Positions 1 through 41,670 of a DNA stretch of 64,000 nt are shown here, one piece after another. The notes beneath the pieces were generated by a model, which made no database searches, was not told where the DNA came from, and saw only the letters and a program-made list of their open reading frames with translations. The position numbers and the translations under genes are program-made. Origin of the DNA: Leishmania martiniquensis. Taxonomy: Eukaryota > Euglenozoa > Kinetoplastea > Trypanosomatida > Trypanosomatidae. The number at the start of each line of letters is the position of its first letter. The stretch's first letter is position 1. The DNA is taken from contig NC_090139.1 in the NCBI RefSeq assembly GCF_017916325.1, forward strand, positions 328,501 to 392,500, read 5' to 3'.

Positions 1-3000
1 CCATGTGGGAGCCGACGCTGATGGCATCTCGTCGCGGACCGTCGAAGCGCTCGAAAACGGCGTCTCCTCACTCGATATCCGCGCCAGTGGGATGGACAAG
101 CGCCGCTTGTGCAGTGCGTGCTGCCGCAGCGCGCAGCACGCAGCGATGTTTGCGCGGCTGTGCAGAAGCGCCAGCCGCAGTTTCTCCTGCATCAGCAGGC
201 AGTCCAGGAAAGCTGCCTCCGACACCTGCTGGTTCAGAGTCGAGAACATCAGTGAGCCAAGGCCACCGTCGAGGTTGCGCATGCGTGCCGTGTACATAAA
301 GGCGTACGCCAGTCGCGCGGCTGGCGTCGGCATCGCTGCGTGCACATCTTTCTCTGCCACCACCTCATAGCTCCACGGAGAGGCACCGAGGAAGTAGGGC
401 CATGTGCGGCGCGCCGCTATTTCCTCCGTCGTCGCCATCTTCGCCGCCACGGCGCGGCGCCGCCCAGCTTCCCACGGCACCGTAGCCGCCAGCAGCACGT
501 TCGTGACGTGATCCGCCAGCGACAGCGTCTTCGGCGCTGCATTCACCCACACGGAGTGGGGGAGGCAGTCGATGTTGTGGCGGTCTGTGAGCCGCACGCA
601 CGCCGTCTCATAGCTGCGCGGATGGGCACCATCATCACCGGCGCACGCCTCCACCACAAATGCGTGGACATAGGCCGACAAGCGCATGTCCAGCGCGTCC
701 AGAAGGTTTGCGGAGGGGTGGTCAAGGTAGTAGGCGGCTTCCTCGGTCGAAGGGCTACCCCCTCTGCCGCCCTCGTCGCTCGCTGCGGTGCCCTTGTCTC
801 GAGCCGAGCCGTGCGCCATCGCCAGGAGGTTTTGTGCCTCCGCTGTGTCAAAGCGCGACAGCCACACCGCGGCGCACAGGTCTGCGTAGGTGGCTTCCGT
901 TAAGGGAGCGTAGGTAAGTTGGCCTGCTGATAGCCATGAGGCAGAGCGGGATCGACTGCCAATCGCAGTGGACGCAGAGGCTCCGGCGGACACCTCATCC
1001 ACGGGGTAGCGCAGCATCGGCAACACGTCGGCGTACAGCCCCTTTGGCACGAAGGAGCGCGGCATCGCGGAGGCCCGGTCGCGGCGGTGGAGCTCGACGA
1101 CGTTCACGACGTCCTCCATCTCTTCGTTTGTTTCCTCATTGATGCGAACGTACTGCTGCTCGAGCGCGTCCATCATGTAGGTCGCATCTATGCTCGCCTC
1201 CTCCAGCGGATCCACGTAGCGGTAGCGCTGCCCCGTAGCGAGCGGCGACGCAAGCACAGGTTCGTCGTCGACACACAGGCCGAGCTCGACGCTGGTGCGC
1301 GGCGGCGGCGCGAAGACTGCGGAGGAATTCACCACCGCGGCCGTGTCGTGCATCTCTGCCCGTTTCATTGCCCTCTCGACCTCCTGCAGTGCCTCGGCGC
1401 TGTCGTCGGCGCCCATCGACGGAGTGCCAAGCGCTCCTTCGCTTTCACTGTATTCCTCTGCGGCGCCGAGCTCATCGGAATTCATGTCCTGCGACGCCGC
1501 ACCGCCCTCCGTGGCGCCGCGGGCAGCTGCCGATTCGCCGACGCAGTGCGCACGGCTCTTCTGAGTGAGCGACATACGCACATCGTCACGGCCAACGGAG
1601 TTGTGCGACTCGCGGCGGCCCTTCGCCGTGACATTTTGCGAAGTGGTTGGCGGTGGCTGCGCGGACGAGGGTAGGATGAGCTCCGCCCCTTCGTCCCTGA
1701 CGCATAGGTTCCGCTCCGCAGAAGCGGTGACGACCTCGCCGAGCAAGGCTGTGTACGGTTGCTCCTCTTGCTGCCTCTGCTCGATGCGGGACTCCGACCC
1801 TGCGGCGACGTGCCTTGAGTGCGGTAGGCCGCCGGTGCACTCCAACACAAGCTCCCGTGGTTGGTGGGTGCGCTGGATCTCTCTTGGATCAGCAGCCGCA
1901 CGACATCGGGGCGACTGTGGACGGCTCAGCGACGTTCTCTGAAAAGTGGCAACGCCGAGTCCGTCGGCGTCGTCTCCGCACGAGGAGCCGGCGGCCTCGT
2001 GCTTCGGCTGTTGTCGCCGCTGCGATGGGGGCTCGTCAGTGGTCATCAACAGCGTCACTGCCTCCTTGGCGGCGGACAAACGCTCACTCGCCTCCCTCGC
2101 TGCTGCTGCGCCGGCGTAACCGTCACCTGCACCGCGTGACAGGTTACGCGCCGGAGGGGCAGAATGGTGCAGGGAGACGGCGCCGAGCCTCTGAGACGGC
2201 GCCGCCGTTGCCTTTGCGGAGAAGTAAGGCGGCACCTCCTCCTCTTCCTCCTCCTCCCTCGGCAGCGTGATGTCATCGAGATGCTGGCTGTCCTTCGACC
2301 ACTCGGGCAGCATTGAGGTCGCCACCGTTGGCCTGGAGGGCTGTGCGGAGATGGGTGCGTCCATCGGCTGCAACCGCGACCGCGCCTGCTGTTGCGAAGG
2401 TACCGAAGCAGAATGACTGCCCCGGTGCCCCACCTGCCGCGTAGATGCAATGCTGTTCGCCGTGCCTTGACGTTGCTGCTGCTGCGGCAGCTGCGTGACA
2501 CCTGTGCTTCGCTGTTCGCGCGGCGGTGACTGCGGGAGGCGCTGCGGCGATACAGGCCGCTTCGCTGAGGTTTGTGCCCTAGCGGAGGGGCTGCGGTCCC
2601 CTTGGTGCGACAACGGGCTGTTGTCTGACGGGCAGCTGGGGCGGTGTTGCGACCGCTTCCCTCCCGCCGCGGGGACTGCAGGAGACACTTGAAGTGCCAA
2701 CGCAGCGAACGCACCTGAGCGTTGGGGAACGTTGCGCTGGCCGCGCGGCAGCCCGACCGTGTAGGTTGGCATGACACCGTATGGACTACCGAACGGTATG
2801 CCACTCGGCGCGCCACACACGTGCCGGAAGACTTGACGAGTGCGGCTGCTGCGCGCGCTGCTGGCCTCGCTCACCACGCTGCTCGTGTCATCGGCCGCCG
2901 TGAACGCATAAGAATGCTGTGACTGCTGCTGATGTGGCGGTGGCGGCGCCGCACTGAGCTGCGGCACCAAGACGCCAACGTACTGCTGCTGCGGTTGATG

Positions 3001-4188
3001 AGGGTGCGACGACGAAGGCGCGCTGCCCAGATGTTCCGCGAAGATGCGGCGTACGTGACGGTGCTGGGTAAGCTGCAGAGACGGCGCTAGCGCATAGTAG
3101 TTCAGCGGGGGTGGCGGCTGTGGCTGCTGGTGCGAAGGAGGTGGAGGCCTTGCCGAGAACAAGAGCTGCTGCTGTGAGGTAGTCGGAACGGCGCTCCTGT
3201 CGGCGTCTGTCTCCCACGCAGATGGCCCCGCAGATGAGGAGGCGGTGTGCTTCCGCGTAGTGGCATCGCGTTTCGACCCGGAAGGCCTCTGCGGGGCTGA
3301 CCGTGCGGAGGGAATCGCTGCCGGGGACCCGAGCGGAGCGGAAGGCCGCTGCACCGGCGTGCTGGCTGTCTGCTCTGTTTCTAATGGAGGTTGCCACACA
3401 GGTTCGGATGAGGCCGCGCCGGCCGCAGAGCACACGCCGCGCGACTCCGCGCGCGGAGCATCTGGTGTGCTCCACAACATGCAGGGCGGTGTTGTCGCTG
3501 CAGGTGGGCGAGTAGGGCCGCCATTTGTCACGGCAGCGACAGCACTGCTGACTTGCTGCGGCCACGGCAGCGAGGACGACGCTGGTGCCGCGCTAAGAAG
3601 CTGCGCTTGCGCAACAGTGGAATTCCGAGCAGTGCCGTCGACACGCGCCACGTATTGCGGCGGCGACAGCGATGGCTGACGGCCGTGGCTGCCAGAAAGC
3701 GAAGAGGCTCGTGCAGAGGCCGGTGGGAGACGGCGCTGCTGATGCGACTCCGCCGTCTTCCCTCTCGACGGGCGCGGGGGCGGCTGTGAGCTGCCGCGGT
3801 AAACTGCCACTGCTGCTGCTGCTGTCGGGGGTAAGAGTATTCCCGCTGATGCAAGCGACGCCGAGTGGAAGGGGATGTTGCGGTTGCTGCTTGCGCCGCG
3901 GCGAGGCGATGTGGAGGAAGCGGCAGCAACAGCAGAGCGCGTGTATCGAGGCGAAGGCGCTTGCCGCTGGTGCCGCTGTGGTGAAGGTGCGGTTGCTGTT
4001 GCGGTTGCGGTGGCTGCAGGCGCAGGGGGTGCAACGCTTGGCAGCCGATAGTGGAGTCGTGCAGTCGCGAAGTCGTAGATGGTGTTCGCTGACGTCGCAA
4101 TCGGCCACGCTCGCCTGCTACTGGGCGGATGCGCCGTTGAGCGTTCCGGCGCCACGTCGATGGAGCTGCCAGCCCTGCCTGAGGGCAT
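1..4188 (-). CDS. Large hypothetical protein, 3' end outside window
   Basis: An uninterrupted reading frame of 1396 codons runs from an ATG at 4188 to position 1 without a stop, so the C-terminus lies beyond the window. The ATG is the first one after a clear polypyrimidine tract and AG (4237-4269), giving a predicted 5' UTR of about 48 nt. Residues 1 to about 900 are low complexity, rich in Ala, Pro, Ser and Gln with several short Gln runs. From about residue 930 the composition becomes ordinary: an acidic helical stretch (EALQEVERAMKRAEM), then a probable globular region from about 990 to the edge with many aromatic and hydrophobic residues (for example RTWPYFLGASPWSYEVV). I recognise no family. 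The gene is the last of the minus-strand series in this window. Confidence that it is a real gene is high; its function is unknown. Confidence 0.85.
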   Translation of the reverse strand, partial: MPSGRAGSSIDVAPERSTAHPPSSRRAWPIATSANTIYDFATARLHYRLPSVAPPAPAATATATATAPSPQRHQRQAPSPRYTRSAVAAASSTSPRRGASSNRNIPFHSASLASAGILLPPTAAAAVAVYRGSSQPPPRPSRGKTAESHQQRRLPPASARASSLSGSHGRQPSLSPPQYVARVDGTARNSTVAQAQLLSAAPASSSLPWPQQVSSAVAAVTNGGPTRPPAATTPPCMLWSTPDAPRAESRGVCSAAGAASSEPVWQPPLETEQTASTPVQRPSAPLGSPAAIPSARSAPQRPSGSKRDATTRKHTASSSAGPSAWETDADRSAVPTTSQQQLLFSARPPPPSHQQPQPPPPLNYYALAPSLQLTQHRHVRRIFAEHLGSAPSSSHPHQPQQQYVGVLVPQLSAAPPPPHQQQSQHSYAFTAADDTSSVVSEASSARSSRTRQVFRHVCGAPSGIPFGSPYGVMPTYTVGLPRGQRNVPQRSGAFAALALQVSPAVPAAGGKRSQHRPSCPSDNSPLSHQGDRSPSARAQTSAKRPVSPQRLPQSPPREQRSTGVTQLPQQQQRQGTANSIASTRQVGHRGSHSASVPSQQQARSRLQPMDAPISAQPSRPTVATSMLPEWSKDSQHLDDITLPREEEEEEEVPPYFSAKATAAPSQRLGAVSLHHSAPPARNLSRGAGDGYAGAAAAREASERLSAAKEAVTLLMTTDEPPSQRRQQPKHEAAGSSCGDDADGLGVATFQRTSLSRPQSPRCRAAADPREIQRTHQPRELVLECTGGLPHSRHVAAGSESRIEQRQQEEQPYTALLGEVVTASAERNLCVRDEGAELILPSSAQPPPTTSQNVTAKGRRESHNSVGRDDVRMSLTQKSRAHCVGESAAARGATEGGAASQDMNSDELGAAEEYSESEGALGTPSMGADDSAEALQEVERAMKRAEMHDTAAVVNSSAVFAPPPRTSVELGLCVDDEPVLASPLATGQRYRYVDPLEEASIDATYMMDALEQQYVRINEETNEEMEDVVNVVELHRRDRASAMPRSFVPKGLYADVLPMLRYPVDEVSAGASASTAIGSRSRSASWLSAGQLTYAPLTEATYADLCAAVWLSRFDTAEAQNLLAMAHGSARDKGTAASDEGGRGGSPSTEEAAYYLDHPSANLLDALDMRLSAYVHAFVVEACAGDDGAHPRSYETACVRLTDRHNIDCLPHSVWVNAAPKTLSLADHVTNVLLAATVPWEAGRRRAVAAKMATTEEIAARRTWPYFLGASPWSYEVVAEKDVHAAMPTPAARLAYAFMYTARMRNLDGGLGSLMFSTLNQQVSEAAFLDCLLMQEKLRLALLHSRANIAACCALRQHALHKRRLSIPLARISSEETPFSSASTVRDEMPSASAPTW

Positions 4189-5982: not shown

Positions 5983-6720
5983 TTAGCAGTTCAAAAGATC
6001 GGCGCCCAGCAAAACTTGCATGGCAACGAGTTGGTCCCGCTCTGAGGTGCGGTCGAGGTCACCAAAGATATCGGCTTCGTGCAGGTAATTCGGGTGACTC
6101 GCTAGCGTGATCTTTACCACGAGGAACTCGGCAACACGCACCAACGTGCTCGACTCCAGCGATCGAATCGGCACATTCAGAAGCGGCGGCACGTATGGCG
6201 ACGGCGGCGCAGGAGGGGATGCCGATGCCTGGGTTGGGGGCGATGGCGGTACACAAGTCACGTTGCTTGGGAATACAGCGGCGTAGCTTCGATAGGCGGC
6301 GCCGCTTGCCGGATGGCTGACGTCGGCCTCTTCGCTATCGTCTTCGTCCTCGATGATCGGAATGGGATCGCGGACTCTTTCCTCAGCACGGCTGTGCGCC
6401 GCGTTGGCGGCACTGTCGCTCCTGCTGCTGCCGCTGCCGCTGGGCCTTGGGCTATGGAGCTCTACATGACGCGCATCTTCGTCCGACATGCCCTCCTGCT
6501 CACGCCGTACCTGCGCTGGCTGGTCTGTAGGCGAGGTGCTCTGGTGCAGCTGCATCACGTACAGGCCTTGAAAGATGCCGTGAAGAACACGTGACCCAGC
6601 CGCGGCGGCCAGCGGAAGAATGATGCGCTTGCCATCGTGGCTGCACAGCGAGACGTAACTAAGCGGCTTGACGACCGCAGTCGAGGCAGCGGCGACGGTG
6701 TTGGCGTACGAGTTCGCCAT
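5983..6720 (-). CDS. Elongin-C/SKP1-like POZ-fold protein with acidic insertion
   Basis: A 245-residue protein. Residues 21-54 (SYVSLCSHDGKRIILP, then a helix ending HGIFQG) and 182-245 (NVPIRSLESSTLVRVAEFLV and the C-terminus VLLGADLLNC) resemble the two halves of elongin C, which has a Y-V-x-L-x-S-x-D-G-x-E-F start, a central I-P-S-x-V-L-S-K helix and the terminus LLMAANFLDC. Between them, residues 55-181 form a Ser/Pro/acidic insertion (IIEDEDDSEEADV). Elongin C and SKP1 are adaptors of cullin-RING ubiquitin ligases; whether this one binds a cullin or BC-box partner is inference. The start at 6720 is preferred because in-frame upstream codons translate a pyrimidine tract (LSLSLDCPPP). The adjacent upstream gene (9997-8201) has the same split organisation. 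Confidence 0.65.
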   Translation of the reverse strand: MANSYANTVAAASTAVVKPLSYVSLCSHDGKRIILPLAAAAGSRVLHGIFQGLYVMQLHQSTSPTDQPAQVRREQEGMSDEDARHVELHSPRPSGSGSSRSDSAANAAHSRAEERVRDPIPIIEDEDDSEEADVSHPASGAAYRSYAAVFPSNVTCVPPSPPTQASASPPAPPSPYVPPLLNVPIRSLESSTLVRVAEFLVVKITLASHPNYLHEADIFGDLDRTSERDQLVAMQVLLGADLLNC

Positions 6721-8200
6721 AGCCGCCGCGAGCAGAAGAGACTTGGGAAGGCAAAGGAGGTGGAGGAGAGGCGGAGGACAGTCCAGAGAGAGAGAGAGGG
6801 TGCGAGCGCGGGAGCCTAAAGAGGGGAGAGGAAAGAGGACGATGAGAAGGTGGCTGAGCACCTGCGCTCAGTGTAGATGCAGAGGTGCGATGTAAGGCAG
6901 CGGGGAGGAGGTGTAGAATACAAGAGAGGGTGACGGAGGTGCGGTGTGAGGCACACGTTCTTGGCGAAGCAGAGTGGGAAAGGTTCGCGCATCATGCACT
7001 GGAGCATGGGGTCGCTAACGCTACGACAGGTTCTCGTTGTGAATGTCCATCGCTGCGGTTGAGGGGAGAGGGGGGGACCACAGGCTGACCCCCCCCGCAC
7101 CATGACCCACACAGGCTGCACCGCACTTTTCTGTACCGGCGTGCCTGCATGTGCGTGTGTGTGGCCTCCTTCTCCTCGGGTGCGTGGAATGAGTAACCTG
7201 GCATAATTTAGGCGACTGCGCTTCTTTTCAGCACACTCGAGGGAGGTGAGGAGGGGAAACCGCTTCTCCGCTGCTCTCATGTTTGCCGCTTCATCGTTGA
7301 GCACATAGACAACACACGCACACACGAGCACACCAAAGCACCGACATACTTGGAAGCTGCTCGGACATCGCAGCTTCGCTAGTGATCCATTCTGCAAAAA
7401 ACGTTATCTGCGCTGACGAAGTCAGTTACGCGCATACGCACACCTAAGCAGGAGCGGAGAGCACCATGCGCAGGCACGGCGTCTGCCCTCAGCCTCTCTC
7501 CCCCACCCCCTCCCTCTCCTCGCTGCGCAGAAGTGTGCCGCGCAAAACATACGCAAAGTACTGCACACACGAACCTGACACAATACGAGAGCAGAGAGAG
7601 TGTGTGTCTGTGTCTGAAGGGTGGGGGGACGGCGGCGCCAGCGAAGCGATGCGGAGGACCTCAGGAGGAGGAGGGAGAGGGGGAGAGGACAGAGACGGAG
7701 GGGGCGCTAGGATGGAAGCCGTGGGTAAGACAGCCGATATCGCTTACGTGAGGGCCATACAGGGGAGGGGGACACACATAGACACACACACACGAGTACG
7801 GGCGACAATGCGCATGAGGAAGGGAAAGGCGAGGGCGTCGAGGAGGTGGTGGTCTCGAGCGAAGGAATGGGGCGACCAAGTAAGACGAGCCGTACAGAAA
7901 AATAAAGGAGGTATGGCAGAAGACGCGCACACCCTCGCTCAAACAGACAGGTATTGATATGGCCGGCGATCTTGCGGGGAGCATGTCAGACGAGCAGAGG
8001 TACCGATGGGGAAGTGGGCGAGGCAAGGGGGGAGAGAGGCGATGACCAACGTCGAAGGGAGGCACGTAACTGCCTGCACGCGTGTGTGTGTGTGTGGGGG
8101 GGGGTAGGGGGGGTGCGTGGGTAACTGAATAGGGGCGGACGTTGCGCCGAAAATACACAGCCCGGATTCCACGTATCCACGCAAAGGCGCCTGGAGGGCG
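6721..8200. other. Intergenic region, no gene seen
   Basis: About 1.5 kb of 3' and 5' UTR sequence with purine/pyrimidine-biased strands and a (TG)n-G run near 8078-8107. No coding signature was recognised on either strand. Confidence 0.6.
6742..6779 (-). promoter_or_regulatory. Probable trans-splice acceptor
   Basis: A C/T-rich tract followed by CCCAAG on the transcript strand, about 21 nt upstream of the ATG at 6720. It supports that ATG over the longer in-frame extension, which reads back through the pyrimidine tract. Confidence 0.4.
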
Positions 8201-9997
8201 CTACACTTGAAGGAACACTGCAGCCTCCATCAGCCGTGCGGCGCGACTCATCAACGCAGCGCGCTGCTCGGGTGGCAGCAGCCGTATGTGGTGGGGGCTG
8301 CCTAATACACGGGTGCCGAGGTGCAAGTCCGTCGCTTCATCCGGCTGCAGAGAGCTTCGGACGACCATGAAGGCGGCCAAGTCAACTAGATCCTCGCTGT
8401 GCAGCTGCGGAAGCGGGTAGTTCGGCATGTTATCCACGCAGTTGCTAGCGAAGCAGGTGTAGCGGGACCCGTCCTGCGCCACTCGGTGGTTCGTCATCCG
8501 TGTCGTCGTCTCGTCGTGTGCCGCCGCACCGGCCTGCTCAGCAGTTGCGTCCCCCGCAGAGCCCCACACGTCCTCCTCCTCCTCTTCCTCCCGGCTGCTC
8601 GGCGTCGGCGAGTTGTTGTCGTCGGAGCTGTGCCCCTCTTCCAGCCCCATCAGCACTGCTGCCTTCTCCGGCGGCGAGGCGGCAGCAGTCGCAGCTGCCG
8701 AAGCCGTGACGGGCGACACAGCCGCCGGCGCAGTAGCTGTCATCGTTGCGGCGCCCTCAGCTAGCTCGGCACTGACTGCGGAGGTGGTTCGGCAGGTGGA
8801 GACACAGGCCTTGCTTTCCTTGGCTTCGTGGGCCAGGAAGGTGCCAACGTGTGCGCGCGATTCGTCTGCTACGTTGCCGCCTGCCACCTGCAGCGTACCT
8901 CTCGATTCTTTTGGCAGCGCCACTGGGGCTAGGCAGCGCGGCACCGTGGCGGACTGCCCTCGCAGTGACTCGAGCTCTTCGGCGTCATCGACCTGCGTGT
9001 CTGTCACCGGAGAGTCGCTCGTGAGCTCGCTGCGAGACACTGACCTCTTCAGCTGAATGCCCGCTTCATGGAGGTGCTGCATCACGTAGGACGCGTACGT
9101 GCGCGAGGCAGCCGTCTTCACACGAGTCCCCCACTGACTACGAATACCACCGCGGAGCACCTGAGGAGGGCGGTCCGCACCGCGGCTTCTGAGTGCGTCT
9201 GTCCGCCCCTCGCCGGCGCCTCGTCCCGCGTCACCGCCTTCACCACCGAGTGAGAGCACCGACTGGTCTTCGGTGGCGATCGCATCTGAAATGACGGAGG
9301 AGCTCAGCGAGGGCGCGTCTCCGTCCTCTGGGGAAGCAGACCTTACACGAGAGTGCGGCCCGGAGCTCTCACTTTCATCACCGTTGGCGGCCTCGTGCGA
9401 ATGCGGCTGCTGCTGTTGCTGTTGCTGTTGCGGCGACTCTGCTGGGGACGAGCTGCGAGAGGACTGCAGCACCGCGCCAGACTCGCCACAGTTACCACTA
9501 CCGTCTTGCCCAAAGGTGTTCGCGTTGCAGTGATGACTGCAGCCGCCACTCCTACTACTTGTCACAGCAGCTTCGCCCATCATGACGGACTCGCATCCTG
9601 GCAGGCAGAGTAGTCCTTGCAGCGTGTTAGCGATGAAGGCCGACTCGAACCCCGCGACCATGGGCATGATGACCCACTTTCGACCTTTAAAGTTGGCGTC
9701 CTTCCACCCGACGTTGTGGAGCGCAATGTACGGGATAGCGATTGACGGCACACCACCACCACCACTGCTGCTGCTGCTGCTCGTTGCGTTTGTGGCATGG
9801 AGGTGGGGCTCACTGCAGTGCGGAAGTCGCAGGCCCGCCATTGGTGCCACGCGAGCGTCTTGAATCGTAATCGTCTCCGGTGGCGTGGGATCGTCAGCCA
9901 TCATCAGTGTAGGGTCTCGGCGGTAGTTGAAGCCGGACAGGGGTGGCCGCGGAGGCGCCAGCGGGGAGCTCCACTGCTCTTGCGGAGGCTGCTCCAT
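8201..9997 (-). CDS. Elongin-C-like POZ-fold protein with very long disordered insertion
   Basis: A 598-residue protein. Residues 88-132 (IPYIALHNVG, then KGRKWVIMPMVAGFESAFIA and NTLQG) match the first strand-helix half of an elongin-C/SKP1 fold. Residues 523-598 (YPLPQLHSEDLVDLAAFMVV, then LMEAAVFLQV at the C-terminus) match the second half. The roughly 390 residues between them are low complexity: an octa-Gln run encoded at 9407-9430, Ser-rich and acidic segments. The ATG at 9997 was chosen because the in-frame codons further upstream read through a probable leader region. The match is weaker than in the neighbour at 6720-5983, but the layout is the same, so the pair probably arose by an old tandem duplication. 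Other POZ-fold families cannot be excluded. Confidence 0.55.
   Translation of the reverse strand: MEQPPQEQWSSPLAPPRPPLSGFNYRRDPTLMMADDPTPPETITIQDARVAPMAGLRLPHCSEPHLHATNATSSSSSSGGGGVPSIAIPYIALHNVGWKDANFKGRKWVIMPMVAGFESAFIANTLQGLLCLPGCESVMMGEAAVTSSRSGGCSHHCNANTFGQDGSGNCGESGAVLQSSRSSSPAESPQQQQQQQQPHSHEAANGDESESSGPHSRVRSASPEDGDAPSLSSSVISDAIATEDQSVLSLGGEGGDAGRGAGEGRTDALRSRGADRPPQVLRGGIRSQWGTRVKTAASRTYASYVMQHLHEAGIQLKRSVSRSELTSDSPVTDTQVDDAEELESLRGQSATVPRCLAPVALPKESRGTLQVAGGNVADESRAHVGTFLAHEAKESKACVSTCRTTSAVSAELAEGAATMTATAPAAVSPVTASAAATAAASPPEKAAVLMGLEEGHSSDDNNSPTPSSREEEEEEDVWGSAGDATAEQAGAAAHDETTTRMTNHRVAQDGSRYTCFASNCVDNMPNYPLPQLHSEDLVDLAAFMVVRSSLQPDEATDLHLGTRVLGSPHHIRLLPPEQRAALMSRAARLMEAAVFLQV
9407..9430 (-). 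repeat. CAG/CAA run encoding eight Gln
   Basis: A 24-nt tract of alternating CAG and CAA codons inside the insertion of the 598-residue elongin-C-like protein. Interruption by CAA should limit slippage. Confidence 0.85.
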
Positions 9998-12921: not shown

Positions 12922-14388
12922 TCAAGTCCCGAACCAAGAGCGGTAGCGCCCCTTGAGCTCCTGCAGTTGAGCGTCGTTGAGGTCGAGCGGCTTCTCGTCC
13001 TTGGCAAAGTCGGCAATGGCCCTCTTCTGTTCCTCCGTCAGTTCCTTTGGCAGCATGACCGCGAAGTGTATAAAGAAGTCCCCCGTCTTGTTGTGGTTGG
13101 GCCGGTGGACCCCGCGGCCGCGTAGCACGAGCTTGTCGCCCTGCTGCGTACCGACGGGAACGCGCGTTTCGACCTCGCCCGTCAGGGTCGGCACACGCAC
13201 TGTGCCACCGAGCACCGCGGTGGAGAGGGTGATGGGGGTAATGACGTGTATGTCGCTGCCTTCGCGGTGGAAGACGGGGTCGTCCTCGACGGAGATTTCA
13301 ATGTAAAGGTTGCCAGGCGGGCCATTGCGCACGCCAGCTTCACCCTTGCCCGTTACCTTCAGCCTCTCCTTGTTGTCCACGCCTTTCGGAACCGGCAGCG
13401 TCTGCACGCTACGGTCCTTTACGATACCCTTGCCACTGCACTGCGTGCATGTTGTCCGGCCAAGCTCGCCCGTACCACCACAGTGGGTGCAGTCCTGCTG
13501 CATATGGAAGAAGCCGGTGGACATGACCTTCTTGCCGCGACCGCCGCAGTGTGGACACTTGGTGCGCGAGCCGGTGTCCTGGCAGCCGCTGCCGGTGCAG
13601 GCCCCACAGCGGCGCATCGTGTTGTAGCTGATCTCCTTGTGGCAGCCCTTGACCGCCTCGAGGAAGCTGAGCGTGAGCTTGTAGTGAATATCCGCGCCAG
13701 GCTCGGGGCCCTGCGGCTTCCGGGCTTTCTCCTTACCGCTGCTGCTCATCTTCTGGAAGATCTCCTCAAAGTCATTGAAGGAGAAGCCACCCGGCTGGCT
13801 GCTGCCGCCCATGTTCGCAAAGGGGTTGCCACCCGCCGCGAAAGGGTTGGCGCCGGCGCCAAAGGGGTTGAAGCCGCCACCAGGCCCGCCGGCCCCACCG
13901 AAGCCGCTCGCGGCGCTGGCATTGCCGGTCATGTCGTACATGCTGCGCTTTTGTGAGTCGGAGAGGGTCTCGTAGGCCTGCTTGGCTTCGGCAAAGTCCT
14001 CAGCAGCGGAGGGGCTTGGGTTGACGTCGGGGTGTAGAGCCTTGGCGCGCTTCTTATAGGCTGACTTGATCTGCTCCGGCGTCGCGTTGCGAGCCACACC
14101 CAGCACCGAGTACAAGTCCTTCTTTGCCCCGCCGCTGGACTGCCAGCGACGATGCTGCCGCAGCGCCGCCGAGCCGGCCATCGCCGAGTGTACGTCGCTG
14201 CCTACTGACACTAGGCCAGACGGCAGTAGCGCCTCACCAAACGGGCCAGCGGTGGCCGCCCTCTCAGACATTGCCGCCCGCCGCATGGCCGTGGTGCGCG
14301 GAGGCAGGCGCGTGGGCCCATAGGAGCGATAGATGCGCGCCGCTGAGGTTGGGTGAAAGCCAGCCAACTGACAAGATGCAGCTTTCAT
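12922..14388 (-). CDS. Mitochondrial type-I (class A) DnaJ/Hsp40 co-chaperone
   Basis: A 488-residue protein with the full DnaJ layout: a basic, Ser/Ala-rich N-terminus of about 90 residues that looks like a mitochondrial presequence; a J domain (91-152) with the HPD motif at 119-121; a Gly/Phe-rich linker (160-205); four zinc-finger repeats (CGACTGSG 261-268, CPHCGGRG 278-285, CTHCGGTG 300-307, CTQCSGKG 314-321); and the two C-terminal substrate-binding domains. The HPD loop stimulates the ATPase of a partner Hsp70, presumably mitochondrial Hsp70 here. All motifs are intact and the length is normal for a mitochondrial class-A J protein once the presequence is counted. The ATG at 14388 gives the whole presequence. 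Confidence 0.93.
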   Translation of the reverse strand: MKAASCQLAGFHPTSAARIYRSYGPTRLPPRTTAMRRAAMSERAATAGPFGEALLPSGLVSVGSDVHSAMAGSAALRQHRRWQSSGGAKKDLYSVLGVARNATPEQIKSAYKKRAKALHPDVNPSPSAAEDFAEAKQAYETLSDSQKRSMYDMTGNASAASGFGGAGGPGGGFNPFGAGANPFAAGGNPFANMGGSSQPGGFSFNDFEEIFQKMSSSGKEKARKPQGPEPGADIHYKLTLSFLEAVKGCHKEISYNTMRRCGACTGSGCQDTGSRTKCPHCGGRGKKVMSTGFFHMQQDCTHCGGTGELGRTTCTQCSGKGIVKDRSVQTLPVPKGVDNKERLKVTGKGEAGVRNGPPGNLYIEISVEDDPVFHREGSDIHVITPITLSTAVLGGTVRVPTLTGEVETRVPVGTQQGDKLVLRGRGVHRPNHNKTGDFFIHFAVMLPKELTEEQKRAIADFAKDEKPLDLNDAQLQELKGRYRSWFGT

Positions 14389-16163: not shown

Positions 16164-16805
16164 TTACGCCATCACGTTGCGCATCGTGATCTTGCCCTTA
16201 GGTGCGATCAGCTTGCAGTGAATGCCGCGCTGCTCGAGCTTGCCGGCGTCGCGCAGAGCTTCGTACTCGGTGCGGAGAATGTTGGTGAAGCCCCAGTACT
16301 TGGACGTCACGATGATCTGGCGGCCAGGGAACTTCATCTTGGCACGGCGCAGGGCCTCGTAGGCCTGAGGCACGTACGCCTCCTTGGTGCGCATGGACAG
16401 CAGGATCTGGCCAATGCGGACGCGGGCGCACACGCCGTTCGGCTTACCAAAGGCACCGCGCATACCAGTCTGCAGACGATCGGCGCCGGCGCACGAGAGC
16501 ATCTTATTGATGCGCAGCACGTGGAAGGGGTGGGCGCGGGTGCGCATGTGAAACACGTCCTTGTTGGCGCGCTTCACCATGTACTTGTTGGCCTGAATGC
16601 GGGCAGCCTCCAGCGCCTCAGACGCGATCTGCTCCAGCTCGCGGGACACGACATGGATGCACACCGGGAACTCATCGACGGTGGCGCGACGACGGCCAAT
16701 GTCGAAGTTGCGGATCTTCGGATCCGGCACACCACGGCAGAAGCGCGACTTCGGGTACGGCTTATTCTTGCAGAACCGGTAGCAGCGGGACGGACGGCGG
16801 GCCAT
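16164..16805 (-). CDS. RPL10: 60S ribosomal protein L10 (uL16)
   Basis: A 213-residue protein, the normal length of eukaryotic L10. It starts [20 protein letters not shown], the conserved N-terminus of the family, and contains the expected internal stretches [14 protein letters not shown] and [11 protein letters not shown]10 sits at the base of the central protuberance near the tRNA path and joins the 60S subunit at a late cytoplasmic step. No frameshift or missing segment is seen. The gene lies between adenylate kinase (5' side) and the mitochondrial DnaJ (3' side). A single copy is present in this window. Confidence 0.97.
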
Positions 16806-37746: not shown

Positions 37747-38706
37747 TCAGCTCTTGGTCTCGGCCCATGTCCCGCACTCCATAGTTGCCGCCTCGGCGCT
37801 GGAGGCCTTCTTCCCGTCCACCTCCGCAAGAATTTCGTCATACACCTTCTGCATGTGCTGCTGCATCCGAGCAGCGACGGCCTTGCTGTCTTCGTGATCG
37901 TAGTCGATGAGGAAGTGGCCAACACGTATGTGCAGGTCCGCCGGCATGCCTCCGATCGCTGTCCACCACGGCCATGTCTTCCCGCCACCCTCATGCACCA
38001 TGTAGTACGTTTCCATTCGGTGTTCCATGATGGTGGCAAAGGTGCCGAAGCGGAACGCCTGCAGTTTGCGCGGATTCCTGTTAATGGCGCCCTCAGGGAA
38101 GACTGCGAGACTGCCGCCGCTGGTGAGGTGGGCGTTGACGCGCTTCTGCATCACCGCCTGCTTCTCCTTGTCCACCTGAAAGTTACTGTCCGCGTCCGAG
38201 GTGAAGTACACAGGAAAGTGCCCGACGCGGTTGAAGACGCCGCCAAAGATTGGAATTCTGCGCAGCGATGCCTTCATCAATGTGCGTATGTGGAGGAGAT
38301 GCCTTAGTGGTGTCAGCCCAATAAAGGCATAGACGTCCCAGAAGGAGGTGTGGTTGCCGACATACGCCCCGTGATGCGGGCGAATGTCCTTCCACGACCG
38401 CTGCTTGCCAGCCTCGTCACGGTCAAAACATACGTGCACGCAAACCTGCGGGTTAAGCCACCATACGATGCGGAAAGATAGGACCAGTGGCATAATGCAC
38501 AGGCGCTGCACGTAGTACGTTGGCACACCGACACGGCCCAGCTGCACAACGACCTTCGTCAAGGCCGCGACCGGTAGGATTGCAAGAACGTTGACAAGCA
38601 GGAACCATGCCCGCATGAGCGTGACGGGCACAAGGCGCTGGGCAAGCAGGATGCGCCATATCACGAAGGCGATCGCAGCGAAGAGAGTGCAGCCGACGAC
38701 GTCCAT
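37747..38706 (-). CDS. PlsC-type acyltransferase A (1-acyl-glycerol-phosphate acyltransferase-like)
   Basis: A 319-residue protein. Two hydrophobic segments lie near residues 4-20 and 33-50. The acyltransferase motif I, NHTSFWD (H-x4-D), is at 118-124; motif II (LMKASLRRIPIFG) at 143-155; motif III FPEGAINR at 203-210, where the usual Thr after Gly is Ala. The family acylates lysophosphatidate or related lysophospholipids at membranes. The Ala in motif III may alter acceptor binding, so the substrate is uncertain. The start ATG at 38706 was chosen because upstream in-frame codons read repeat-like UTR. The gene lies directly downstream of paralogue B (41670-40639), and residues 135-185 are nearly identical to it at DNA level. 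Confidence 0.9.
   Translation of the reverse strand: MDVVGCTLFAAIAFVIWRILLAQRLVPVTLMRAWFLLVNVLAILPVAALTKVVVQLGRVGVPTYYVQRLCIMPLVLSFRIVWWLNPQVCVHVCFDRDEAGKQRSWKDIRPHHGAYVGNHTSFWDVYAFIGLTPLRHLLHIRTLMKASLRRIPIFGGVFNRVGHFPVYFTSDADSNFQVDKEKQAVMQKRVNAHLTSGGSLAVFPEGAINRNPRKLQAFRFGTFATIMEHRMETYYMVHEGGGKTWPWWTAIGGMPADLHIRVGHFLIDYDHEDSKAVAARMQQHMQKVYDEILAEVDGKKASSAEAATMECGTWAETKS
38152..38302 (-). repeat. Near-identical internal tract shared with acyltransferase B (copy A)
   Basis: This 151-bp coding stretch equals 41059-41209 with a single difference (38187 versus 41094), while most of the rest of the two genes is clearly diverged. It covers motif II and the residues after it. Confidence 0.9.
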
Positions 38707-40638
38707 TGCGTCTTTTTTGTTGTTCAGACAAGCAAACTGTGTTGGTGTGTACGTGTGGGGATAGGGGGTGAGGGGGGAGGCGATGGAAGAAGTGTACCGC
38801 AAGCCGTGACCCCTCGCCTGATACATGCACCGACACTCCGGGGGGAGGGGGAGGGGGGAGAGTGGAGCGCCTCACGCCGCTCCCGACCCCGTCACGGAGA
38901 CCCACACGGCTTCGCGATGCAATGCGGCCATAGAGACAAGCGCTGCGGCGATGCTCCCGCCTCACCTAAATGAGCTCAGCCCTCCTCCCCCCAAACACAC
39001 AAGCCTTGGGGCGGCGCAAAGTCCTCCCTGCCTCCGCCGCCTCCATGGGCAGTGGGGGTCGTGCGAGATACGCCCGTGTTGCACCGACGCCTTGCCATTC
39101 ATGAGTTGGCCACCGACACTCGCAGCGGCAAAAACACCCTGACCTCCCCGCCGAGAGGCTTCGTGGGCCTACCACCACACACTCACAGGTGCCCCCTCTC
39201 CTCACAGGCGGTGAGGGAGCACAGAGAAGCTGAATGGCGGGTGGGGGTGAGGCAGATCTCTGCTCCTTCACGTTGCCGGGACTAAAATTTCACAGGGAGC
39301 GCGGCGTTGGTGATGGTGGAGTATGCGTGTGTGCCATTTCATACATCACTCTCTCTATTTCTTGCGTGCACACAGGCACAGACACACACACACACACACA
39401 CCGATCTGCAGAGCCGTGCGGAGGAGGAAGGGGCGGCGGCGAGAGCAGCAGTGGGGCGATGATGCGGCGGCGTTGTTGGTATGAGGGGACGTCTCGTGTG
39501 ATCGAACCTTTCAGGCACTGGTGATCTTGCATGGCGGATGTCGAAGGACCGGAGTGGGTGGAGAAGAGGAAAGGAACGGTGCAGAGTGTGGGCGGATTGT
39601 GCGGTTGACGCAAAGGAGTCGCGGCGTCGCTCCCCCTCTCTCCCTCCCCCGTTTCGAAGTGGCATCGCTTGACGGATGGGATTGGGTGAGAGGAGGGACC
39701 GCGTCTGTGACGCGTGGAGGAATCCTTAGGAGGAAGAGAACTGCACCCCACCCCCTCACACGGACGCCCGACGCGGAAACGTCACTCAGTGCGCGCGCGG
39801 GCGGTGTATCCGGGGCGGTGTGCCCCGGAAGTGTTGAAGGACACGAGGACATACGCGCTGGACTCTAAAACCTGCGGCAGTCCCCGAACGTTGCGTTCTG
39901 TATCTCCTGATTAGCCGCCCTCCTCCTCCACCCCCGCTCCCTCGTCACCGCCGCTTCTTGACGCGCATGGGGGTCGCGCACACGGACATATCGGCATCTA
40001 AGGGGAAGAGGAGAAGGTGCGAGGGCGGCAGTTGAGGGAGAGGAGAGGCTCTGCACATAGCGACATCATGACAAGACGTGGAGTGCGGTGACGGCAACCG
40101 TTGGCGCACATGCCTGCGACCACACCTGCATGCGGGTAGAGAATGAGGCCGAGTGACCGAGTGAGAGGAACGCACGCTCGCCACCAACGCTCGAGCCACG
40201 CATACACTCACGCACAGACAGCGAAGAGCTTATGGATGAGGTGGGGGTGGGGACATTAGGAGCGCTTTTTCCGCAGGAAGGGAGATGAGCGTGCAACGCA
40301 TCAGAAACGTTGCCGAGGCATCAAAGTTTGGAAACTGGGAGCAAAAGAAATAGGCAAGTCGGGTGAGCGTGCGCATGCGGTGGGGCGGGGGAGGAGTGGG
40401 AGTGAGGGTGGGAGGGTGAGGCAGCCGACGACGCTTCAACTCGCATTCCTGCGCGCGCGAAACCGCTGGGCCGTAGTCGCTGCCTTGCACAAGCTTCACT
40501 CTCTCTCTCTACATATCTCTCGCTCTCTTCGCACAAGCTCATCGGCCAGGCCCTGCGCAGCAACGCCATGCGCCGCTCGGTTGAGGTGATGCGGCAGGCT
40601 TACACCGTCGCGGTAGCCGCAGGGGCCTTTGGAGCACC
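38707..40638. other. Intergenic region holding repeat copy 1
   Basis: About 1.9 kb between the acyltransferase genes. It holds the 370-bp repeat listed separately and CA repeats (39385-39402). The other sequence shows no coding signature. Confidence 0.6.
38858..39227. repeat. 370-bp direct repeat, copy 1
   Basis: This stretch recurs at 42282-42651 at a fixed offset of 3424 bp with one substitution noticed (39077 T, 42501 A). Identity stops sharply after 39227. It lies about 150 bp 5' of acyltransferase A, thus in the 3' flank of acyltransferase B. It may belong to a SIDER-type degenerate retroposon family known in Leishmania UTRs, but I could not test that. Confidence 0.93.
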
Positions 40639-41670
40639 CTAGAGCGATGCGCCGCCGAGCGGCCTCATTTCTTTCGATTCCGCCACCGGATTCTCATGCC
40701 GCCGCTGCGCCGCCTCCGCGGTTGCCACCTCCGCTGCAATCTCGTCTCGCACCTGCTGCATGCGCTGCTGCAGCCTGACCGCGACGCTCTTGCTCGACTC
40801 CTGGTCGAAGTCGATGGGGAAGCGGCCGATACGAATGTGGACATCGGCAGGCAGCCCGCCATAGGGCATCTGTGGCGGCCACGTCTTCTCGCCGCCGACG
40901 GCGACCATGTAGTAAACAGGGAGGCGATGCTCCATGATGGTGGCAAAGGTGCCGAAGCGGAACGCCTTGAGTGTCTCGGGGGTTCTATTGACGGTACCCT
41001 CAGGGAAGAAGACGAGGCTTCCACCGCGGCGCAGGTGGGCGTTGACGCGCTCCTGCACCACCGCCTGCTTCTCCTTGTCCACCTGAAAGTTACCGTCCGC
41101 GTCCGAGGTGAAGTACACAGGAAAGTGCCCGACGCGGTTGAAGACGCCGCCAAAGATTGGAATTCTGCGCAGCGATGCCTTCATCAATGTGCGTATGTGG
41201 AGGAGATGCGACATGGGCGTAATGCCGACCACCTCGAAGGTATCCCAGAAGGAGGTGTGGTTCAACGCTAAGGCGATGCTGGTGCGGGCGATGTCGTCCC
41301 AGCCCACTGGCTTCCCATCTTCGTTCGCGTCGAACTTGACGCGCGTGTGGATCTGTGGGTTGGCCCACCAAACGGCTTTGAAGGCGTAGCCGACAATGCA
41401 GACACAGATACTCTGCAGACAGTGCTGCGGCACACCGACGTAGCGGAGCGGGTCGAAGAGGTGGATGAGCGCAGCGGACGGTAGGATGAGCGCAGCGGCG
41501 CACAAAAGAAACCACTTCTGCATGACCCACTTCGGCACCAGGCGACGGCGGAGAAGCGTGTAGCCGGCGCCGAGTGCGACGACGAGCATGATGCCACGCT
41601 GGCCGCGCGTCAGCTTCGGCAGACATGCGACCGCCTCCTGCGATAGGCAGGCCATCCTCGCACTCATCAT
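40639..41670 (-). CDS. PlsC-type acyltransferase B
   Basis: A 343-residue paralogue of the gene at 38706-37747. Two hydrophobic segments lie in the first 75 residues. Motif I NHTSFWD is at 137-143, motif II at about 162-174, and motif III FPEGTVNR at 222-229 is canonical, so catalytic residues are intact. It probably acylates a lysophospholipid at the ER or another membrane; the exact substrate is unknown. The first ATG in the frame is at 41670 (a GTG ten codons earlier is ignored); ATGs at 41667 and 41655 are alternatives. The gene is bracketed by the two 370-bp direct repeats at 38858-39227 and 42282-42651. Confidence 0.9.
   Translation of the reverse strand: MMSARMACLSQEAVACLPKLTRGQRGIMLVVALGAGYTLLRRRLVPKWVMQKWFLLCAAALILPSAALIHLFDPLRYVGVPQHCLQSICVCIVGYAFKAVWWANPQIHTRVKFDANEDGKPVGWDDIARTSIALALNHTSFWDTFEVVGITPMSHLLHIRTLMKASLRRIPIFGGVFNRVGHFPVYFTSDADGNFQVDKEKQAVVQERVNAHLRRGGSLVFFPEGTVNRTPETLKAFRFGTFATIMEHRLPVYYMVAVGGEKTWPPQMPYGGLPADVHIRIGRFPIDFDQESSKSVAVRLQQRMQQVRDEIAAEVATAEAAQRRHENPVAESKEMRPLGGASL
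41059..41209 (-). repeat. Near-identical internal tract shared with acyltransferase A (copy B)
   Basis: Partner of 38152-38302; 151 bp with one difference. The surrounding coding sequence is much less similar, which is typical of gene conversion or strong local constraint. Confidence 0.9.

Follow-up and report, generated by a model that had tools for sequence, protein, structure and literature searches.

Human CUL2 works via elongin C, a small adaptor by which substrate receptors are joined to ubiquitin ligases. In 2009, ligases built on elongins were seen as a late innovation of animals and fungi, which may have occurred on two separate occasions (PMC2785787). Among kinetoplastids, several Skp1 paralogs are already known: the accessible sections of one report distinguish four clades, without Skp1.2 among them (PMC11732084), and Skp-1.2 was added in a second report (PMC12816148). 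According to the latter, Trypanosoma brucei has seven cullins, of which six were tagged and isolated, and TbCul-E was co-isolated with Rbx1, Nedd8, four kelch proteins and TbSkp-1.2, among others; its authors term TbSkp-1.2 a Skp-1 paralog confined to Euglenozoa, and human KLHDC2, KLHDC3 and KLHDC10 act with CUL2 (PMC12816148). Here we analyze a stretch of 64,000 nucleotides from chromosome 4 (contig C4, positions 328501-392500) of Leishmania martiniquensis, hereafter the window, with two neighboring genes annotated as hypothetical: gene A (5983..6720, minus strand; 245 residues), encoding an elongin-C-like protein, and gene B (8201..9997, minus strand; 598 residues). An earlier note on this DNA had read the pair as split elongin-C/SKP1-like folds, and both open reading frames (ORFs), as well as the C-terminal ends it quoted, LLGADLLNC in A and LMEAAVFLQV in B, are present as written. 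The best explanation, to which we assign a probability of roughly 0.6, is that A is a cullin adaptor of the elongin C type in which one loop is expanded, that B is probably its old relative, and that the pair is the counterpart of TbSkp-1.2. In the accessible parts of the literature searched, there was no statement that equates kinetoplastid Skp1 paralogs with elongin C or that calls A or B adaptors.

Gene A and elongin C

We compared the proteins with the elongin/SKP1 group by profile-profile comparison (hhalign), with a reference profile made of human and yeast elongin C and human and Leishmania SKP1; these profiles are small (2 to 4 sequences), and the probabilities are to be read against shuffles and decoys, not as library values. 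The core of A matched the reference with a probability of 95.9, a score of 51.9 and an E value of 6e-9, compared with a score of 11.6 after reversal and with 60 column shuffles that averaged 10.7 and reached at most 14.9, none attaining 51.9. Each half of A matched elongin C separately, own half to own half. The N-terminal block (residues 18-60; 6541..6669, minus strand), which corresponds to the first half of elongin C, scored 22.2 against the combined profile (best of 60 shuffles, 15.3) and 22.8 against elongin C alone (9.3 reversed), and the C-terminal block (residues 179-245; 5986..6186, minus strand), which follows the second half of elongin C to its last residue, scored 40.9 (best of 60 shuffles, 15.9). 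The full family profile, insert included, still reached 91.8 against the combined profile. The window sequence of A alone gave 63.9 at full length and 91.6 for the core, the best of 138 decoy ORFs being at 0.9 (the decoys came from 140 ORFs of 100-400 residues in the window and 16 loci, minus those carrying the tail of A, B or SKP1). When all 154 ATG-initiated ORFs of at least 80 residues in the window were scanned with the elongin/SKP1 profile, A ranked first at 63.9, with the runner-up at 2.4; B obtained 0.16, and a scan of this kind misses relatives as divergent as B.

The match is far better to elongin C alone (90.2) than to SKP1 alone (3.4; score 20.2, still above 11.5 for the reversed control), which identifies A as a protein of the elongin C type. 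Residue 245, the last of A, which directly precedes the stop codon (5983-5985), aligns with Cys112, the final residue of elongin C. In a gap-free, hand-set register of 72 positions, 21 are identical between window A and human elongin C; the count rises to 25 when a match in any member of the family is accepted. The BC-box pocket of elongin C presumably comprises V73, Y76, L101, L103, L104, A107, F109 and C112; at these positions A has V, F, M/V, L/V, L, A, F/L and C, all kept or conservative, consistent with binding of a BC box.

The structural model of A, which is of low confidence, is compatible with this likeness. It contains strands at 22-26 and 32-36 and helices at 37-40 and 44-61, in the overall order strand, strand, helix, helix, insert, helix, helix, helix, without a predicted third strand, and this order is close to that of elongin C, in which we take the counterparts of the N-terminal block to be beta1-beta2-alpha1-alpha2. 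A Foldseek search with this model returned 366 matches at E values up to 10, none significant (all at 0.8 or above); the best 50 of the 366 comprised 46 entries that contain elongin C, 2 of Skp1 and 2 others, which weakly supports the likeness to elongin C.

On these comparisons, gene A is homologous to elongin C. Compositional chance as the source of the likeness would fit the silence of the curated hidden Markov model (HMM) and PDB sequence searches reported below, but we consider it highly improbable in view of the shuffles (none of 60), the drop from 51.9 to 11.6 on reversal, the 138 decoys at 0.9 or less and the first rank of A among the 154 ORFs. The genome was also searched with Pfam models: PF03931 (Skp1_POZ) has one reported match, SKP1 on contig C11; PF01466 (the Skp1 C-terminal domain), which has no match in A, is found on C11 and C33, and below the cut-off on C9; PF00651 (BTB) has no match in A, B or their family members and two in the genome, on C22 and C17. 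The PF01466 match at C33:439237-439365 (E value 1.3e-5), which was not reported by the Skp1_POZ search, is a candidate for another Skp1 paralog.

Gene B and the inserts

The connection of B to elongin C runs through A. The core of B matched the core of A at 83.7, which none of 100 shuffles attained; for the full proteins, the value was 36.0. The signal lies in the first half: the N-terminal block of B (residues 84-141; 9575..9748, minus strand) matched that of A with a probability of 90.2 (0 of 100 shuffles), cross-half pairs giving 0.1, and against a joint profile of elongin C and A, B reached 54.7 with its core and 53.2 with its N-terminal half (0 of 60 shuffles in both cases). The C-terminal block (residues 521-598; 8204..8437, minus strand), which ends in AAVFLQV at the stop codon, matched that of A only weakly, with a probability of 1.9 (reached by 3 of 100 shuffles), and the joint profile at 0.5 (15 of 60); the AAVFLQV end hints at a relationship without attaining significance. 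Because of the match to A, supported in the first half, B looks like an old relative: most likely, to judge from sequence, a tandem one with a more diverged domain and a larger loop.

Alternatively, only A would be elongin-like, and B would be a disordered protein of separate descent, the short N-terminal motif of which resembles that of A by chance or convergence. The shuffle counts for its C-terminal block lean that way, as do the lack of an elongin or SKP1 signal in B on its own and the absence of elongin from the matches of its structural model. This alternative, which we regard as possible but rather unlikely, has to contend with the first-half match and its specificity, with the adjacency of A and B in three genera (four species), and with the observation that B ends where elongin C ends and that its model, albeit poor, has two strands followed by a helix and then by further helices.

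In both proteins, the two blocks flank an insert. The insert of A (residues 61-178; 6187..6540, minus strand) has 118 residues and maps to loop 46-57 of elongin C; that of B (residues 142-520; 8438..9574, minus strand) has 379. Among family members, the length ranges from 72 to 123 residues in A (15 members) and from 329 to 379 in B (14 members). The composition of the inserts resembles that of disordered chains, with Ser, Pro, Ala, Gly and Thr making up 53% in A and 50% in B, and VILMFYWC residues 15% and 17%, respectively. The median identity to the window copy (14 homologs for A, 13 for B) is 88% and 87% for the N- and C-terminal blocks of A, and 91% and 90% for those of B, compared with 38% for residues 61-140 of the A insert and 47% and 60% for residues 142-278 and 364-505 of the B insert.

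Against this variable background, two islands stand out: residues 141-160 of A (6241..6300, minus strand), with a median identity of 85%, and residues 279-363 of B (8909..9163, minus strand), with 81%. The B island holds LRGGIR and VPRCLAPV-type motifs and a helix predicted at 296-311 in the low-confidence model, and is too conserved for a plain spacer. Because of these islands, the inserts appear to be more than spacers, and the conservation suggests that a partner binds there or that a short stretch is structured. In structure 2C9W, human elongin C has two disordered loops: residues 46-57, where the A insert maps, and residues 85-88 (PMC4486172). Because the human protein is mobile at this site, the insert could expand without breaking the fold. 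A also differs in length from elongin C near the loop 85-88.

The proposal of the earlier note can thus be refined. The conserved blocks it delineated are real; the elongin C resemblance it assigned to both proteins is far above chance for A, and is specifically of the elongin C rather than the SKP1 type, the insert occupying the loop that joins the halves, whereas direct comparison does not reveal it for B, which is linked only through A. Its description of an old tandem pair agrees with the match of the cores but finds no comparable backing in the C-terminal halves or the full proteins. The inserts, described as low-complexity and about 127 and 390 residues long, are somewhat shorter by the present boundaries and mostly fast-evolving, except for the islands.

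The locus and TbSkp-1.2

Like most long ORFs in the window, A and B lie on the minus strand. Their closest relatives are those of L. enriettii and Leishmania sp. Ghana (77% and 78% identity). The A family comprises 15 proteins, including the window copy, and the B family 14, the named members of both coming from Leishmania, Porcisia and Leptomonas; no further copy of either gene was found in the genome itself, where the matches were weak (E value 0.02 or worse). By locus tag, the genes are adjacent in Porcisia hertigi (JKF63_07280/07281), Leptomonas pyrrhocoris (ABB37_08462/08463) and Leptomonas seymouri (ABL78_6367/6366). B is an ortholog of LMJF_04_0920, and the L. major homolog of A has 248 residues, the length of LmjF.04.0910 (PMC4670862), to which it was assigned by this match. 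By locus tag or number, then, A and B are neighbors in four species of three genera.

The gene for ribosomal protein L10e (RPL10/QM; 16164..16805, minus strand; PF00252, E value 2.3e-33) provides an anchor for comparison with T. brucei. We take QM to be L10e, and the L. major copy of L10e to be LmjF.04.0950. The numbers of A and B, 0910 and 0920, place them between 0860, a gene that was not pinpointed within the window, and the L10e gene, and Tb927.9.8370 falls between Tb927.9.8290 and Tb927.9.8420. LmjF.04.0860 corresponds to Tb927.9.8290 (PMC3637525), and Tb927.9.8420 is QM-like (PMC9585242). The A-B pair and TbSkp-1.2 hence share a syntenic interval if the identifier Tb927.9.8370 is right. 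Because of this synteny, and because A is the sole ORF in the 64 kb picked by the elongin/SKP1 profile, TbSkp-1.2 most naturally corresponds to A, or with lower probability to B. The L. martiniquensis genome contains 7 cullin genes (8 matches, two of them in one frame), on contigs C16, C24, C25, C28 (two genes), C35 and C36. Two cullin genes lie in tandem on contig C28, at 836081-837787 and 839231-841009.

Several results weigh against this reading or limit it. A has no Pfam match, curated HMM and PDB sequence searches gave no elongin or SKP1 match for it, and none of the 15 members of its family exceeds the cut-off of PF03931. Empty profile searches had been named in the earlier note as a reason to abandon the idea; plain HMM searches were indeed empty for both A and B, an outcome that profile-profile comparison overturns for A. 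The AlphaFold models are poor, with a confidence (predicted local distance difference test, pLDDT) of 38 for A and 34 for B, which leaves one packed fold as a prediction. Compared directly with elongin C/SKP1, the core of B scored 14.9, within the range of its shuffles (4 of 60 as high); HMM, Foldseek and profile-profile comparisons gave no significant POZ or elongin match for B, and the 8 Foldseek matches of its model, at E values up to 10, included no elongin. No Trypanosoma sequence occurs among the named matches of A or B, and a strict BC box was absent from all 4 complete kelch ORFs examined. Finally, in PMC12816148, TbSkp-1.2 is Tb927.9.8370 in Table 1, yet Tb927.9.8570 appears among the query genes in Methods.

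Some of these points would also suit a different scenario, in which A is a divergent SKP1/POZ relative that is no longer linked to a cullin and serves another complex, comparable to SkpZ, a member of the TUSK deubiquitinase complex. Elongin C itself has partners outside ligases, which we count in favor of this scenario together with the missing BC boxes. There is a precedent as well, given that the Skp1 paralog SkpZ has already moved into the Usp7/Tpr86 complex in kinetoplastids (PMC11732084). We nevertheless deem it unlikely, as A matches elongin C far better than SKP1 and as the syntenic TbSkp-1.2 co-purifies with a cullin, provided that the Table 1 identifier is right (PMC12816148).

Under the preferred explanation, of A as an elongin-C-type adaptor, we infer the fold, the cullin partner, the kelch receptors and the role of the insert. 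The two halves of A would fold together into a small POZ-like elongin C domain, the C-terminal helix of which would contribute to a pocket gripping a helix of a substrate receptor, while a lineage-specific linker of 72-123 residues would emanate from loop 46-57, which is disordered in the human protein. With the pair, and A more likely than B, as the Leishmania counterpart of TbSkp-1.2, the simplest mechanism would have A bridging kelch receptors and a Cul-E-like cullin. The insert may tune docking or provide extra contacts that are regulated. More tentatively, and with less confidence than in the reading as a whole, one may imagine that A and B are duplicated elongin-C-type adaptors of a TbCul-E-type cullin with kelch receptors, in the layout of the animal ligases of CUL2, elongin C and KLHDC proteins, with the loop turned into a long, probably regulated arm.

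Among the other genes of the window, a DnaJ-type chaperone (12922..14388, minus strand; PF00226, PF01556 and PF00684) is a neighbor of the pair on the side of higher coordinates, ahead of the L10e gene. Two acyltransferase genes (PF01553) at 37747-38826 and 40639-41670, on the minus strand and about 2 kb apart, are perhaps tandem duplicates, and a long low-complexity ORF of at least 1396 codons (1-4188, minus strand) extends past the start of the window.

Comparison with known systems

If the more tentative reading of A and B as duplicated adaptors is correct, elongin-C-based ligases would not be limited to animals and fungi, and the adaptor of TbCul-E, labeled a 'Skp-1 paralog', would be an elongin C. 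The presence of a recognizable elongin C in Leishmania, possibly linked to a cullin complex that has been isolated from T. brucei, would make the question of a late origin testable and would give A and B a name. More generally, a large disordered insert can keep Pfam and single-sequence searches from recognizing an adaptor domain, and other adaptors may have been overlooked for the same reason.

Of the known relatives, SKP1 (the LINF_110018100 type of Leishmania, here on C11) belongs to the same superfamily and resembles A in its C-terminal block (AANFLN), but continues into the PF01466 domain, which A lacks, and is poorly matched by the A profile. SkpZ, Skp1.3 and Skp1.4 are divergent kinetoplastid Skp1 paralogs, of which Skp1.4 is enlarged, too; in the accessible sections of PMC11732084, the enlargement is an N-terminal extension and is not described as an internal insert, unlike that of A. 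TbSkp-1.2 (Tb927.9.8370) resembles the A-B pair in lying between the same anchor genes, a comparison by position, although the available part of PMC12816148 reports one gene in T. brucei where there is a pair here. Elongin C (ELOC, Elc1) differs from A in that A carries the 118-residue insert and a longer stretch before the last helix, has no Pfam match and shares 21 of the 72 aligned residues. However, elongin C and A have the same two blocks in the same order, with an S-x-DG motif after the first strand, both proteins end right after the A-x-FL-x-C helix, and the residues that presumably form the BC-box pocket are kept or conservatively replaced.

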